Shown: positions 17,811 to 29,904 of the stretch, piece by piece | How the letters are laid out: each line of letters starts with the position of its first letter | Numbering within the stretch: position 1 is the first letter of the stretch | From: a virus | DNA: 31,142 nucleotides | IMG/VR virus record: IMGVR_UViG_3300014819_000019 | Location: 315 to 31,456 of that record | Direction: 5' to 3' (one strand) | The notes under the pieces: model-generated | Databases searched by the model: none | What the model was told of the DNA's origin: nothing | Seen by the model: the letters and a program-made list of their open reading frames with translations, nothing else | Translations under genes and position numbers: made by a program

Positions 17811-18132
17811 CGTATTGTTTGAGAGATTCAATTGTTTTATTCATACTATTAAACAAGATACTCATATCAGTTTCTGGTGGAAATCCCATCAGAACAACAG
17901 ATTTGCGAAGATTCTCTTTCATCTCAATCGCTTGGGGGTCATCGGAAAGAGACAAACGTGTATACATTACACATTGTTTTTCAAGGAGCACTTGTAGTTT
18001 TTTAATATGTTCCAATTTTGTTTCACGGTCCATCATACCAAAAGAAAGAATACTTCCGTAAATCTCCTCTTGCAACTTATTGATTTCTTTCAGCTCTTCT
18101 TGAATAATATCAGAATCAAAAAATCTACTCAT
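17800..18132 (-). CDS. DUF1825-like cyanobacterial-type protein
   Basis: 110 residues: SRFFDSDIIQEELKEINKLQ, EEIYGSILSFGMM, EHIKKLQVLLEKQCVMYTRL, SLSDDPQAIEMKENLRKSVV, GFPPETDMSILFNSMNKTIE. This matches the DUF1825 family, which I know from cyanobacterial chromosomes and their phages. It is all-helical with no catalytic motif. Its start overlaps the gp59 stop by eight bases and it sits between gp59 and gp32, a place that in T4 relatives holds replication and transcription accessory proteins. A role in binding the host transcription or replication machinery is a guess from position. It is not gp33; a better gp33 is at 19408-19668. Confidence 0.8.
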   Translation of the reverse strand: MSRFFDSDIIQEELKEINKLQEEIYGSILSFGMMDRETKLEHIKKLQVLLEKQCVMYTRLSLSDDPQAIEMKENLRKSVVLMGFPPETDMSILFNSMNKTIESLKQYVDR

Positions 18133-18715
18133 TGATTATTTCCCGTAAAATCTTTTTGTAATGGAACTTATCGATATTTATGAATGGTGAATACTTTTTG
18201 ATTTTTAAACTTACTGTCTCCCACACTGGATCCAAAAGTTTCTTATCAAAATCTTCTGCAAAAGAAAAGATTCTGTTGTAGATTACGAAAGTTTCTAGCG
18301 ATAATTTCCCGCTTAGAAACTTTTTGAGAACTGGTGGGTGTCCTTTGGAACATCCCAATACATCTTCTAATTTTTTCTCCAAGAACAATTCGCTGCTTTG
18401 TTCTTTGAACAAGTAAGTCAAACTCTGTTGGCGTCTCATCCATTCTTGATAGGTTCTTTCGCCAGAATTGATAATTTCGCCAATCCATAAGTTACTTGGG
18501 GAATCTGCTGCTACAAAGTTTGATACTAAAAAATCTACGACTTCTTTGTCGCCATATTTCCTCGAAGTTTTTTCAAACCAGTATTTATCTCTCCTTTTAT
18601 TAAAGGATGTTATACTTGCACGAGTCTTTGCACCATATTTAAAAAAATCATATTTTGGATTTGTAAAATGGTTTTTGAGTGACAAATAATGTTGGTAAGT
18701 TTCAAATGGTGACAT
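18125..18715 (-). CDS. gp59: Replicative helicase loader gp59
   Basis: 196 residues (T4 gp59 has 217). The sequence YQHYLSLKNHFTNPKYDFFK, YGAKTRASITSFNKRRDKYW, FEKTSRKYGDKEVVDFLVSN, FVAADSPSNLWIGEI is the classic gp59 N-terminal HMG-like domain (AY..Y..LK.HF....YD..KY). The C-terminal half is helical (YNRIFSFAEDFDKKLLDPVW). It loads the gp41 helicase on forks coated with gp32, and its gene is close to gp32 as in T4. The start is ATG 18715. Confidence 0.9.
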   Translation of the reverse strand: MSPFETYQHYLSLKNHFTNPKYDFFKYGAKTRASITSFNKRRDKYWFEKTSRKYGDKEVVDFLVSNFVAADSPSNLWIGEIINSGERTYQEWMRRQQSLTYLFKEQSSELFLEKKLEDVLGCSKGHPPVLKKFLSGKLSLETFVIYNRIFSFAEDFDKKLLDPVWETVSLKIKKYSPFINIDKFHYKKILREIINE

Positions 18716-18731
18716 AATGAATTACAAAAAA

Positions 18732-19376
18732 CTACTTTCCCCCATATGTCTTATATCGTGAAGTCTCAGTATCTGTCCAAGATCTTGGTTTGAAGTCAGC
18801 ACCTGCTCCAGAACCTGTTACACCCCTCAATCTTGATAAAACTTTTGGTTGGGATGAAGTATTTGCAGAAGGTTTTGGTGTAGAAACAGGAGCAGAAGGT
18901 ATGGGTAAAGTATCTTTACTTCCAGTATCATAGGATGAATAACTTTTTGGATGAACACCATCCTTTCCAGCAACAAATCCCCCCTTAAAATTTGCACCAT
19001 ATGATGATGAAAGACTAGCAAGTCTTTCATTTTCTTTATCATAACGACCTTTTGCTGCTCCTAAAACAGTTACATTTGCCCCAGATTTTTTAAGAAGAGC
19101 AAGTTGTCTTTCAATACTTTTAAAATCACTAGGATTATTACTCACACCAGTTGAAACATTGACAGATTGCCCTTTAAATTTATCTGGATTATTTTTTAAA
19201 TCTGATTGAAGTTGTGTATATACTTCGGCAGGACTAGCCCCAACTCGTCTTGTTCCAGGAGAATTTCCACCATATCCAACGGCAATACTGTCACCATAAT
19301 AATATTCAACCAAATGATCAGCAAAAGATGGTGAGGCCGTAGAGGAGGCAAGTAAAAACTGTCCGAAAGTTTTCAT
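18732..19376 (-). CDS. SGNH-hydrolase-like protein with a putative capsid-targeting peptide
   Basis: 214 residues from ATG 19376 (an alternative ATG at 19391 adds five). The SGNH blocks are present: GDS with the nucleophile in YYGDSIAVGYGG, GVSN as oxyanion GxxN, and DGVHP as the Asp/His block. The helix SIERQLALLKKSGANVTVLG sits between. The C terminus is low-complexity (P/S/T) and then basic. The N terminus MKTFGQFLLASSTASPSFAD is like T4 head-targeting peptides (MKTYQEFI...), and HLVE just before YYGDS fits the (L/I)xE rule of prohead protease gp21. A late-type motif precedes it although all neighbours are early or middle genes. A packaged, injected esterase or deacetylase is the inferred role; an alternative is a secreted protein. 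Confidence 0.65.
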   Translation of the reverse strand: MKTFGQFLLASSTASPSFADHLVEYYYGDSIAVGYGGNSPGTRRVGASPAEVYTQLQSDLKNNPDKFKGQSVNVSTGVSNNPSDFKSIERQLALLKKSGANVTVLGAAKGRYDKENERLASLSSSYGANFKGGFVAGKDGVHPKSYSSYDTGSKDTLPIPSAPVSTPKPSANTSSQPKVLSRLRGVTGSGAGADFKPRSWTDTETSRYKTYGGK

Positions 19377-19399: not shown

Positions 19400-19406
19400 T
19401 ATTTAT
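19400..19406 (-). promoter_or_regulatory. Late promoter-like motif ATAAATA before the SGNH gene
   Basis: GAAATAAATAAAC on the minus strand overlaps the gp33 stop codon. A late start about six bases downstream would be near 19394, which makes the ATG at 19376 the more likely start for the SGNH gene than 19391. Confidence 0.5.
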
Positions 19407-19407
19407 T

Positions 19408-19668
19408 TCAAAGAGGAAGTTTTGCTTTTGAAGTTTTCTTCATAAAGTTTAGATTAATCGCATCATATTTCAACCTCTCTTTGAGAGGTTTTGAAATCAA
19501 ACGAGCAATAGTATCAACTTCAATATTATTTATTTCACAATAATGACAAATAGCATCAATATAGTTACACTTCTCGTCTGTGACTATTTTTTCTATCTCT
19601 AAAGAAAACTTAGAAGGGGTTAAAAACTTATTCTGGATCGCTTGTTCTAGTTCTTTATTTGGTTCCAT
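19408..19668 (-). CDS. gp33: Late transcription co-activator gp33-like
   Basis: 86 residues from ATG 19668 (MEPNKELEQ); longer in-frame starts would run deep into the exonuclease gene. The order FSLEIEKIVTDEKCNYIDAI, CHYCEINNIEVDTIARLISK, PLKERLKYDAINLNFMKK resembles T4 gp33 (FIIEKMVEEFGMSYLEAMTA ... IEKIQSEAIDENLL). The C terminus (KAKLPL) has the hydrophobic ending expected of a clamp-binding peptide. In T4, gp33 bridges RNA polymerase and the sliding clamp at late promoters. It is near gp59 and gp32 as in T4, and overlaps the exonuclease by 14 bases. Confidence 0.75.
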   Translation of the reverse strand: MEPNKELEQAIQNKFLTPSKFSLEIEKIVTDEKCNYIDAICHYCEINNIEVDTIARLISKPLKERLKYDAINLNFMKKTSKAKLPL

Positions 19669-20335
19669 AGATCTCCAACTTATCTCTAACAAACTCTCCA
19701 ATGTATTGGGTAAGGAGTTTGATGTATTTTGATTTTTCTCTTTCTTCATAAACGATGCATTCTCCATTTTCACAAGCCATAATGATTACAAGTTTTTTGA
19801 CTGAGATACCAGTCAGTTCGTATAGCATACAACCATATGCCATACATTGAACAAAGTAGTGTTCAATCCACTCTCGTGGTTTTGGTTTTTTAGAAGTCTT
19901 AAAGTCTATTATTGCTAACTCGCCGTCATATTCGGCGATGCAGTCAACAGTCCCAGCAATACCAAGTTGTTTGCTGTATAAGGATCCTTCAAGGGCGTAA
20001 ATGTTATTTATACGTTTTAGATATGTCTTTGAAATATTAAATAAGAAATCTGATAAAGGTTGTACCGAAGGAAGATCACGATTATGAAGATAGTTTTCCA
20101 CAAGTGTGTGCATATCCGTTCCACGACTAGTTGCCTGTCGTGTAATTTTATCCGCTTCTTCTTCACCAACTTTTTTACGCCAGTTAGCAAATATCTGGCG
20201 ATTTTTATGACTTGTTACGGAAGTAATAGAAACTAATTTTAAAAGTTTTTTTGCATCGGGAACTTTATAGTAACGGACACCATCAATGGTTTCACGCTCC
20301 AACTGAGGGAGTTCAATATTAATATGATTAAACAT
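19655..20335 (-). CDS. PD-(D/E)XK exonuclease, RecB/Cas4/MGME1-like
   Basis: 226 residues. The catalytic series is clear: His76 in RGTDMHTLVENYL, Asp131 in GIAGTVDCIAEYDGE, and Asp144 with Lys146 in LAIIDFKTSKKPK. This H-GT.D-DFK pattern is that of RecB-like nucleases (PDDEXK_1). The helix WIEHYFVQCMAYGCMLYELT follows as in Cas4 and MGME1-type single-strand exonucleases. No cysteine cluster for an iron-sulfur centre is present. It could process DNA ends in recombination or degrade host DNA. It overlaps phoH by one base and gp33 by 14, so it is part of the replication/transcription operon. Confidence 0.85.
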   Translation of the reverse strand: MFNHINIELPQLERETIDGVRYYKVPDAKKLLKLVSITSVTSHKNRQIFANWRKKVGEEEADKITRQATSRGTDMHTLVENYLHNRDLPSVQPLSDFLFNISKTYLKRINNIYALEGSLYSKQLGIAGTVDCIAEYDGELAIIDFKTSKKPKPREWIEHYFVQCMAYGCMLYELTGISVKKLVIIMACENGECIVYEEREKSKYIKLLTQYIGEFVRDKLEIYGTK

Positions 20336-25078: not shown

Positions 25079-26713
25079 ATGTATAGATCACAAAGAATTG
25101 TCGTTGTTGGTGGCGGCACTGCTGGTTGGTTCTCAGCAACAACTTTAAAAAGATTTTTTCCAGAAAGAGATATAACCGTTATTGAAAGTCCCAAAGTCCC
25201 GATTATTGGCGTAGGAGAAAGTACCTTAGGATACTTTACTTACTGGTTACATGCAATGGGTATTGATGAAAAAGTTCTTTTCCAATACACAGACGCTTCT
25301 TATAAATCCAGTATTAAGTTTACGGACTTTTACAAAAAAGATGCTGGAGGATTTCACTATCCATTTGGCAGACCATGGACTCCTAACGAACTTTTTGGAG
25401 ATATTGGTGCTAAAGCTTGGCAGTATAAAAAAGTTTTTTATCCAGAAACTCCAGTAGAAGATTACTGCAGAACAATATATCCTCATATGCCATTGATTGA
25501 AAATAATAAAATAAACAAAAATGAGGAAGGAAAACTAGAAGATTATACATTTATACATGCAAATGCATATCATTTTGATGCTGTTAAGTTTGGAATATTT
25601 CTAAGAGATCATCTATGCGTTCCAAATGGAGTTAAACACATTACGGCGGAAGTAAAGAAAGTTGTATCGGATGAAAATGGAGTTAAAGAAGTCGTTCTTG
25701 ATGATGGAAGAGTCATTCAAGGTGATTTATTCGTTGATTGTACTGGATGGAAAAGTCTTCTGATAGGTGAAGAAATGGGAGAACCTTTCTTATCCTACGA
25801 TCACCTTATTCCAAACAATAAAGCTTGGGCAACAAAAATTCCATATACAGATAAAGAAAAAGAACTTGAACCATATACCAACTGCATAGCATTGGGAAAT
25901 GGATGGGTTTGGAATATTCCTCTCTGGTCAAGAATTGGAACTGGGTATGTCTATTCTGATAAGTACATCTCAAAAGAAAATGCTCTAGAAGAGTTTAAAA
26001 GATACCTTAAATCAGATAAAATGAGCCATTATGATCCAAACAGAAATGTAGATGATCTTGAGTTCAAAGATATCAACATGCGTATTGGAATTCATCGCAG
26101 AACCTGGGTTAAAAATGTAGTTGCCATCGGTCTTGCTGCTGGATTTATTGAACCATTGGAAAGCACAGGTTTATACACTGTTCACGAATTTCTAATGAAA
26201 CTGGTGAGTTACATAGATAGAGATTATTATAATCAGTTTGAGATTGATTCATATAATGCGACAACAAGATTAATGTTTGATGGTCTATGTAAGTTTGTTG
26301 CCGTTCATTATGCTCTCTCACACAGAGACGATACTGAATACTGGAGAGATGTTAGAAAAAGATCTTATGCATCGTATTTAATCGATGATGTTCAAACAAA
26401 TCAAGCAATAGAACTTCAGTATTGTGTCGACCAGTTTGGAGAACTTGTTGCTAGAAAATCGCATGTCCATGAACACAATCTACGTTCAGGCAATCACTGC
26501 ATTTTAAATGGTCTGAACTATAATGTAGTTAGTATGGAAAATGTTGTTCATGATGGATTCTATGGATATGGGCCAAGTGTTGAGGATGCTAAGAAAACGA
26601 TTAATCAGATGATGGTTAAGTGGGAGGAAAAGCAAAAAGAATGGCAAAAAATTGCCGATGAATCTCCAACTCAAATGCAATACTTATACGATAATTTTTA
26701 CAAGCATTTTTAA
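25079..26713 (+). CDS. prnA: Flavin-dependent tryptophan-halogenase-like enzyme
   Basis: 544 residues (PrnA has 538). The FAD-binding motif is VVVGGGTAGWFSA (8-20). Lys76 in DASYKSSIKF matches the essential lysine of PrnA and RebH that forms the chloramine or guides HOCl. The halogenase WxWxIP motif is WVWNIP (276-281). AGFIEPLESTGLY (354-366) holds the glutamate near the substrate. GVGEST (44-49) is also conserved. The enzyme would halogenate an indole-type substrate using FADH2 from a separate reductase, which is not found here. Similar genes occur in some cyanophages. The true substrate is unknown, and a peptide or other aromatic is possible. Confidence 0.9.
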   Translation: MYRSQRIVVVGGGTAGWFSATTLKRFFPERDITVIESPKVPIIGVGESTLGYFTYWLHAMGIDEKVLFQYTDASYKSSIKFTDFYKKDAGGFHYPFGRPWTPNELFGDIGAKAWQYKKVFYPETPVEDYCRTIYPHMPLIENNKINKNEEGKLEDYTFIHANAYHFDAVKFGIFLRDHLCVPNGVKHITAEVKKVVSDENGVKEVVLDDGRVIQGDLFVDCTGWKSLLIGEEMGEPFLSYDHLIPNNKAWATKIPYTDKEKELEPYTNCIALGNGWVWNIPLWSRIGTGYVYSDKYISKENALEEFKRYLKSDKMSHYDPNRNVDDLEFKDINMRIGIHRRTWVKNVVAIGLAAGFIEPLESTGLYTVHEFLMKLVSYIDRDYYNQFEIDSYNATTRLMFDGLCKFVAVHYALSHRDDTEYWRDVRKRSYASYLIDDVQTNQAIELQYCVDQFGELVARKSHVHEHNLRSGNHCILNGLNYNVVSMENVVHDGFYGYGPSVEDAKKTINQMMVKWEEKQKEWQKIADESPTQMQYLYDNFYKHF

Positions 26714-28486: not shown

Positions 28487-28804
28487 TTAGTTCTTAAAAA
28501 AATAATCAGATTGAATAGCTTTGTCATCTATGTAGTAATCTGCAGATGGTTTACCCATATAAAGATGATCGTATTTACAACCCCACTGATCTAATTGCTT
28601 TTTGGTGAAAGAATACCACTCAGCACAAGCTTTAGATGGTGGAGGATTTTTACTCATACCTCTTGCAGTAAAATACCATATTTCATGCCCCTGATCATGA
28701 AGATCATTGATTATTTTGATTCTTTCCACAAAAGGTTCTGCTTTTTCATAAGCACCAAAAGTATTTGTGCAAATTGTACCATCTATGTCAACTACATATT
28801 TCAT
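28487..28804 (-). CDS. HAD-family phosphatase, capsule-biosynthesis type
   Basis: 105 residues. HAD motif I is DIDGTIC (DxD), motif II is in YFTARGM, the lysine is in YMGKPSADYYIDDKA, and that last DD supplies motif IV. The short size without a large cap and the sequence FTARGM match EcbF/BcbF-like capsule biosynthesis phosphatases. In this context it could dephosphorylate heptose-1,7-bisphosphate (the GmhB step) between the kinase and the adenylyltransferase. That role is inferred from neighbours. It overlaps the kinase gene end by 17 bases. Confidence 0.82.
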   Translation of the reverse strand: MKYVVDIDGTICTNTFGAYEKAEPFVERIKIINDLHDQGHEIWYFTARGMSKNPPPSKACAEWYSFTKKQLDQWGCKYDHLYMGKPSADYYIDDKAIQSDYFFKN

Positions 28805-29546
28805 TTATGTCATCCCGAGTCAATACGTAAGTTCCACGATTTTGAACAGCAATCGCTGCTGCTTTATTTGCATATGGCATTGCATCTTCTATTCTACCAT
28901 ATTTTAAATAAAAATACACCAAAGTACAGAGAAAAGTATCTCCTGCACCAACAACATCATAGACATTTACCTTCTCTCCTGGATATGATTTTCCATCATA
29001 TACAGATCCTTTATCACCATAAGTAACTATTAGATTTTTATTATTTTTAGATTCCTTATTCAATCTATTATATTCCTGCTCATTAATTTTAATGTAACAG
29101 TTATATTCTGGTAATATAGTTTTTTTAGTATCAATAAAAACTGGACATTTCATACTATAAACAATCTCAAACATTTTTGAACTTGTTATAAATCCTTTAT
29201 TGTAATCACTGATTACAACTGCATCATATTTTTCATTTGGAATATCATACTCCATCGGTTTGCATTGATCCTCAGTATCAACTCTAAGAATCTGTTGGTT
29301 TGTTTTTTCATCAATATATCTGGTTTTTATAATCTTCTCATTATTGGTCATCATATAAACTTCTAAACCAAATGCTTTCAAATTATTATAAACATTCCAG
29401 GCCATACCCTGTCTTTTTTCTGTTCGTCTGTATTTTAAAATGGGAACGGGTGCTTCTGGATTTAATCTTTCAACTACACCATAAACATATTCATCTATAC
29501 AACTATCACCTATTAATAATATTTTGAATCGTTTTTGTTGTGGCAT
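28788..29546 (-). CDS. hldE: Heptose-7-phosphate kinase, HldE N-terminal-like (RfaE1)
   Basis: 252 residues from ATG 29546 (a GTG at 29552 would add two). The PfkB/ribokinase fold is shown by LLIGDSCIDEYVYGVVERLN, PEAPVPI, the glycine/asparagine motif RQGMAWNVYNNLKAFGLEV, and the catalytic anion hole VGAGDTFLCTLVYFYL. NPEAPVPI is specific for the HldE branch. Compared with E. coli HldE, about 25 residues are missing after AFGLEV, so the lid region is reduced. It would make heptose-1,7-bisphosphate. It overlaps the adenylyltransferase gene by 41 bases, keeping the two HldE halves linked in order adenylyltransferase then kinase, the reverse of the fused enzyme. Confidence 0.86.
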   Translation of the reverse strand: MPQQKRFKILLIGDSCIDEYVYGVVERLNPEAPVPILKYRRTEKRQGMAWNVYNNLKAFGLEVYMMTNNEKIIKTRYIDEKTNQQILRVDTEDQCKPMEYDIPNEKYDAVVISDYNKGFITSSKMFEIVYSMKCPVFIDTKKTILPEYNCYIKINEQEYNRLNKESKNNKNLIVTYGDKGSVYDGKSYPGEKVNVYDVVGAGDTFLCTLVYFYLKYGRIEDAMPYANKAAAIAVQNRGTYVLTRDDINEICS

Positions 29547-29904
29547 AATCACCTACTCTATCAAAGAATAAAAGTTTTGCGGCATAGTATGATCCTATCA
29601 CAGATTTACCTTTCCAATCAGATCCTACTACCATTATATTAGGTTTAAAGGATTTTATCATTTCTTCCAACTCATTATCAGTAGAAAAGATATCAACAGC
29701 ATTAACTGATTTAAGATTTTCTAGAAAAAATTTTCTTTCTTCCTGATTATGTATAGGTCTTGTTGGACCCTTTTTTTCAGAAACTCTATCATCACTATCA
29801 ATACCAACTAATAAAAAATCTCCTAAACTCTTTGCATAGTTTAAAAGTTCTAAATGACCACGATGAAGAAGATCAAAAGTTCCATTTACAAAAACTTTAG
29901 TCAT
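29506..29904 (-). CDS. hldE: Heptose-1-phosphate adenylyltransferase, HldE C-terminal-like (RfaE2)
   Basis: 132 residues. The nucleotidyltransferase motif HxGH is in VNGTFDLLHRGHLELLNYAK (His14, His17). The second motif region is GPTRPIHNQEERKFFLENLK, and the adenylyl-transfer loop is MVVGSDWKGKSVIGSYYAAK (replacing the usual K..DY). GIDSDDRVSEKKG is typical. It would join heptose-1-phosphate to ATP, giving ADP-heptose. Glycerol-3-phosphate cytidylyltransferases share the fold, but the kinase next door supports HldE. Its start overlaps the previous stop by one base (TAATG). Confidence 0.87.
   Translation of the reverse strand: MTKVFVNGTFDLLHRGHLELLNYAKSLGDFLLVGIDSDDRVSEKKGPTRPIHNQEERKFFLENLKSVNAVDIFSTDNELEEMIKSFKPNIMVVGSDWKGKSVIGSYYAAKLLFFDRVGDYATTKTIQNIINR

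Follow-up and report, generated by a model that had tools for sequence, protein, structure and literature searches.

We find that T4-like cyanophages carry, between gp33 and gp59, a new locus in which the same leader type and the same C-tail surround different enzymes. The gene analyzed here would be one allele of this exchangeable late-gene cargo locus, and its 214-aa product is, on balance, likely to be a head-targeted, prohead-protease-processed and exchangeable enzyme that acts on the cell wall. It lies on the minus strand of the window, by which we mean the whole 31,142-nt stretch of viral DNA analyzed (positions 315 to 31,456 of IMG/VR record IMGVR_UViG_3300014819_000019). Its features and flanks are as follows.

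18732..19376 (-): gene for the leader-SGNH-tail protein, 214 aa, an intact ORF with a conserved start
19400..19407 (-): T4-type late promoter motif AATAAATA, a late motif of the NATAAATA type
19408..19773 (-): gp33-like late-transcription coactivator, the upstream flank of the locus, as annotated; its true start is probably further in
18125..18715 (-): gp59 helicase loader, the downstream flank of the locus
19353..19376 (-): capsid-targeting-like leader, residues 1-8, MKTFGQFL
19314..19352 (-): spacer, residues 9-21, variable and moderately hydrophobic, with a signal-peptidase-like SPSFA
19305..19313 (-): LVE, residues 22-24, predicted prohead-protease site with the cut expected before Y25
18927..19304 (-): predicted SGNH hydrolase domain with S30, G46, N80, D139 and H142
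18843..18926 (-): Ser/Pro/Thr-rich linker of variable length
18735..18842 (-): C-tail module VLSRLRGVTGSGAGADFKPRSWTDTETSRYKTYGGK, common to the GH73 and M15-like alleles

We take the Met of MKTF (19376) as the right start, since conservation among relatives begins there and since the ATG of a longer in-frame start, MKSKL (19391), lies just 8 nt past the promoter motif; the MKSKL extension is not conserved. The initial annotation had given the gene a late-type promoter and a place between gp59 and gp33, and both observations hold. The NATAAATA sequence is the late motif reported for S-PM2 (PMC2984593), and a [TC]AAATA motif precedes the SGNH-type gene in all relatives with complete upstream sequence. 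The same motif occurs in 6-9% of random 50-nt stretches of the window and is absent upstream of the window's gp59, gp33, exonuclease, PhoH and gp32 genes.

The SGNH blocks GDSIAxG, Gly, STGVSN and DGVHP occur in this order in the 214-aa protein, and S, G, N and H do not vary across nine diverse sequences, including copies from a Helicobacter prophage, Synechococcus phage S-H38 and Kuttervirus. This agrees with the initial annotation, which had read an SGNH hydrolase from blocks GDS, GxxN and DxxH and had proposed structure prediction as a check on the triad. No usable match for the domain came from sequence searches of Pfam, NCBIfam and the PDB. AlphaFold2 run on the full-length protein with six relatives reached a pLDDT of 53; we used instead a model of the SGNH domain alone, built from 16 sequences (pLDDT 86.2, pTM 0.82). 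The best structural match to this model in the PDB was the SGNH esterase CrmE10 (Z 12.1, 123 residues, rmsd 3.1), followed by TesA (Z 11.7), the OatA peptidoglycan O-acetyltransferase domain (Z 11.4) and PatB (Z 9.9), and nearly all of the PDB matches listed were SGNH/GDSL enzymes. The SGNH fold is thus a confident prediction, and by motif and modeled fold we assign the protein to the SGNH hydrolase superfamily, with predicted ester hydrolase activity. The fold does not settle the substrate because TesA and simple esterases match as well as the peptidoglycan O-acetyl enzymes OatA and PatB, whose sequence identity to the window's domain is just 12-18%.

IMG/VR holds 12 distinct full-length SGNH-type sequences, the window's included, and relatives from one IMG/VR search share 59-71% identity with the window protein. 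More distant relatives occur in tail or envelope-acting proteins. In S-H38 the domain sits inside a 1196-aa tail-region protein, named Peptidase M15C in UniProt, and in the Helicobacter prophage it sits inside a protein at the tape-measure position, followed by a lysozyme-like region. Both copies are about 37-43% identical to the window's domain with the same blocks; however, they are embedded in a large protein, close to an M15 peptidase or lysozyme-like region, whereas the window protein is small and stand-alone, with a leader and a tail. The putative lipase of Kuttervirus SeF6a/CBA6 (141 aa) is likewise a small stand-alone SGNH protein encoded near late tail genes, but it has a clear Sec signal peptide and neither the MKTF leader nor the C-tail. 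A scan of genome contigs with a single peptide pattern confirmed no bacterial relative.

A search with the C-tail, which has no match in Pfam or in annotated phages, returned 59 loci with three central domains: SGNH, a GH73 glucosaminidase (PF01832, E 1e-12 to 1e-13) and a third, uncharacterized domain that we call M15-like on the sole basis of an SxHxxxxAxD-like motif and for which no Pfam family was found. The C-tail, the leader type and the presence of a TAAATA promoter motif are common to all three alleles. gp33 lies upstream and gp59 downstream at 14 of 16 SGNH loci, 25 of 26 GH73 loci and 13 of 13 M15-like loci, the last representing one single protein sequence; departures from these flanks come from two GH73 loci at contig ends and from one SGNH genotype placed elsewhere. 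In all 29 distinct leaders [LIV]xE occurs exactly once within the first 32 residues, at position 10, 13, 15 or 24, and always ahead of the enzyme. When we compared a GH73 contig (L148) with an SGNH contig (L149), identity was 95.9% over the upstream 300 nt, 99.1% for the tail and 99.8% on the downstream side, with unrelated centers, indicating that leader and enzyme are exchanged as a pair and that tail and flanks remain in place. Since the first eight codons of this pair are just 70.8% identical, the shared leader pattern was not simply carried over by recombination. Conversely, contigs L168 and L170 have identical centers and downstream flanks that are 90% identical. Among the 80 closest gp59 relatives surveyed we saw three clear inserts, all of GH73 type; the insert between gp33 and gp59 is accessory and missing from most close relatives. 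The same spot with the same front and tail ends but different enzymes suggests swappable enzyme cargo. In the open-access literature we found no paper describing an enzyme swap locus between gp33 and gp59.

Several observations lie beside this locus. An 82-aa ORF made of two tandem C-tail copies is found next to glycosyltransferase-like genes (L182 5989-6237, and L184), which indicates that the C-tail is a free-standing, repeatable domain. On L172 (602-6111; the genotype of L171/L021) an SGNH-type gene with its own late promoter motif lies at another locus, close to a transaldolase-like gene; also nearby is a psbA-like reading frame that looks interrupted and is preceded by an HNH-like ORF. 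Thirteen metagenome contigs (L151-L163) carry the identical 171-aa M15-like allele, whose center weakly resembles a 991-aa protein that in podovirus S-CBP3 adjoins the internal virion proteins. Between gp26/gp51 and the gp5-like hub, the tail-tip protein contains GH73 in S-RIM2 (L197 3215-5422), and at the same position in S-H38 (L007 4276-7866) it contains SGNH and an M15-like region. By sequence, the same kinds of domain appear to be exchanged at this second place in the genome.

The leader suggests a link between the locus and the phage head. MKTFGQFL had been likened to the T4 capsid-targeting peptide, and the likeness is borne out: T4 ipII and ipIII both start MKTYQEFIAEA, and in T4 residues 4 and 7 drive targeting, residues 8 and 10 drive processing, and the prohead protease cuts after L/I-X-E (PMC9026906). 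All 12 SGNH-type sequences keep Q6, F7 and [LI]xE at residues 22-24, while residue 4 is Phe in 10 and Leu in two. Across these 12 sequences pN/pS is 0.16 for codons 1-8, 0.82 for spacer codons 9-21, 0.26 for LxE and 0.26 for the enzyme. At the sequence level, strong constraint on codons 1-8 with a nearly free spacer is what one would expect if a targeting head were followed by a spacer and then a cut site. The initial annotation had also held that LVE fits the gp21 cleavage rule. In this case the motif stands, as the T4-type propeptide test (L/I-x-E within 7-65 residues) finds it at 22-24 in 12 of 12 SGNH-type sequences, but the position does not follow the T4 internal proteins, which are processed at 8-10. 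Residue 10 is never Glu in SGNH-type leaders, and the sole [LIV]xE of the window leader is at 22-24; the predicted cut therefore shifts to residue 24. In the AlphaFold2 model this cut abuts the first residue of strand 1, and the site may be hard to cleave once the SGNH domain has folded. A lipoprotein reading of the leader (Cys at 11) was rejected, as the Cys is Ser in two members and the hydrophobic stretch before it is short. We did not find a prohead protease gene on the window's own record, a 45-kb fragment; the nearest isolate, S-SRM01, has one.

We also compared the leader with N termini of cyanophage virion proteins, a check proposed in the initial annotation. MKTFxQF starts at least 122 distinct, unrelated phage proteins that are not SGNH, and among the matches listed at least 84 have [LIMV]xE at 8-10 and at least 50 are preceded by a TAAATA motif at a distance of 10-45 nt. 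Cytidylyltransferases, SAM lyases, GNAT enzymes and an ADP-ribosyltransferase are represented, among them enzyme classes found in cyanophage virions. S-CREM2 has a published virion proteome (PMC10665884, Table 3), and we scanned its 3148 candidate start codons with a strict motif, M..F..F[LIMVF].E. Four starts matched, and all four are annotated genes with virion-detected products (a SAM hydrolase, an APH-like kinase, a cytidylyltransferase and ORF136), giving p=0.003 against 52 of 219, a value that is somewhat generous because the motif, though taken from other phages, was relaxed after some S-CREM2 N termini had been seen. S-SCSM1 (PMC9602691) has two motif carriers: one is the virion NMNAT, which starts MKSFLQFLKE, and the other is a 106-aa protein that is not listed as a virion protein. 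In six cyanophage genomes the forward pattern occurs 11 times and the reversed pattern 0 times. The authors of both proteome papers caution that such virion enzymes might be purification carry-over (PMC10665884, PMC9602691). The virion-detected enzymes of S-CREM2 and S-SCSM1 resemble the SGNH protein in leader kind, in related hosts and phages and, for most of them, in the late promoter motif; they differ in enzyme type and in having the cut site at residue 10. Head targeting of the SGNH protein is supported by this comparison. One more S-CREM2 virion protein, ORF12 (L200 7704-10313), is annotated as Cas9 and has an internal, targeting-like RFASFMAEA stretch near its N terminus, so that both its start codon and its name look doubtful.

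The T4 proteins IPII, IPIII and Alt are the closest known parallel, sharing the start M-K-T-[FY]-x-[QE]-F-[LI], an L/I-x-E in a short propeptide, late expression and a non-structural nature. Unlike them, the SGNH protein has its predicted site at 24 rather than 10, a hydrophobic spacer, an SGNH enzyme, a constant C-tail and a gp33-gp59 swap locus, and it is known here from sequence alone. Cyanomyoviruses have no alt homologues (PMC2984593).

Other uses of such a leader must be weighed. The protein could be a Sec-exported periplasmic hydrolase, in which case the leader would be a signal peptide with cleavage after SPSFA (residue 19). The obvious signal peptide of the Kuttervirus relative points this way, and we keep the possibility because the SGNH leaders are all moderately hydrophobic (KD11 0.96-1.89, above most MKTFxQF proteins, median 0.30) and mostly have a signal-peptidase-like site, with 10 of 12 fitting the -3/-1 rule, S/V-x-A/G, at 17-19. 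Nevertheless, these values fall below those of all 14 reference signal peptides (1.92-3.18), the L149 leader has a Glu in its hydrophobic core, and L149 and L171 are without the S/V-x-A/G site. Constraint on residues 1-8 and on [LI]xE around an unconstrained spacer also fits poorly, and the GH73 leaders at the same locus, which are not hydrophobic, argue against a Sec signal. We consider export on these grounds quite improbable. The initial claim that the protein is packaged in the head thus gains from leader conservation, selection and related virion proteomes, while the signal-like hydrophobicity and site of the SGNH leaders count against it.

Two further readings concern what the enzyme does. 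It might be a lysis enzyme, modular and endolysin-like with exchangeable catalytic domains and a constant wall-binding or anchoring C-tail, made late and acting at release. The late promoter, the GH73 swap partner, the usual endolysin plan of a constant C-tail with a swapped catalytic domain and the endolysin annotation of related GH73 proteins all fit. A peptidoglycan-cutting domain is seen in the GH73 partner alleles, SGNH not being itself a proven wall hydrolase. However, this reading leaves unexplained the MKTFxxF and [LIV]xE leader common to non-lytic virion enzymes, and absence from most close relatives is odd for an essential lysis gene. We consider a lysis role unlikely, though it is the strongest of the alternatives. 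Alternatively, the enzyme could be packaged in the head and injected but have a cytoplasmic target, namely lipids, thioesters or small esters, instead of the wall. In favor of this, OatA is no better a match to the fold than TesA and AlinE4, and other proteins with the same leader are cytoplasmic-type enzymes. Yet no cytoplasmic substrate is known for GH73, which occupies the same locus, and in SGNH relatives the domain is joined to wall-active domains; we regard a cytoplasmic target as highly improbable.

For the head-targeted wall enzyme that we prefer, predicted targeting and cleavage are supported by comparison, through motif conservation, the selection pattern, related virion proteomes and the non-hydrophobic leaders of the swap partners. 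The protein would be synthesized late from the T4-type late promoter, its first eight residues would direct it to the prohead core in the manner of the T4 capsid-targeting sequence, and cleavage by the prohead protease after L-V-E(24) would leave inside the head an SGNH hydrolase that ends in a short C-terminal tail. We infer that the hydrolase would be delivered with the DNA and that its most likely target is the cell wall, where it might serve, for instance, as a peptidoglycan de-O-acetylase or related esterase. The initial annotation had named host lipids or glycans as substrate; we narrow this to the wall because a glucosaminidase holds the same place elsewhere and SGNH relatives are fused to wall-active domains. 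Ejected wall enzymes are known in podoviruses, e.g., T7 gp16, and action during envelope passage, as with these enzymes, could be one route to peptidoglycan. More tentatively, a dedicated recombining locus may load wall-active enzymes into the head through leader and C-tail for delivery at infection, and the SGNH leader may also serve as an export signal, so that the protein could be packaged or exported.

NMNAT-like enzymes recur in cyanomyovirus virions, and their discoverers could not say with confidence if these were cargo or contaminants. With a simple start motif that predicts virion enzymes in a published proteome, this question becomes testable. At the swap locus, phages exchange enzymes as a unit, and the leader pattern is under selection while the enzyme changes.

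Elsewhere in the window, an ORF at 25079-26713 that starts MYRSQRIVVVGGGTAGWFSATTLKRFFP looks like a flavin-dependent halogenase-type protein. Adjacent ORFs at 28788-29904 look like HldE-like kinase and cytidylyltransferase halves, split in two.
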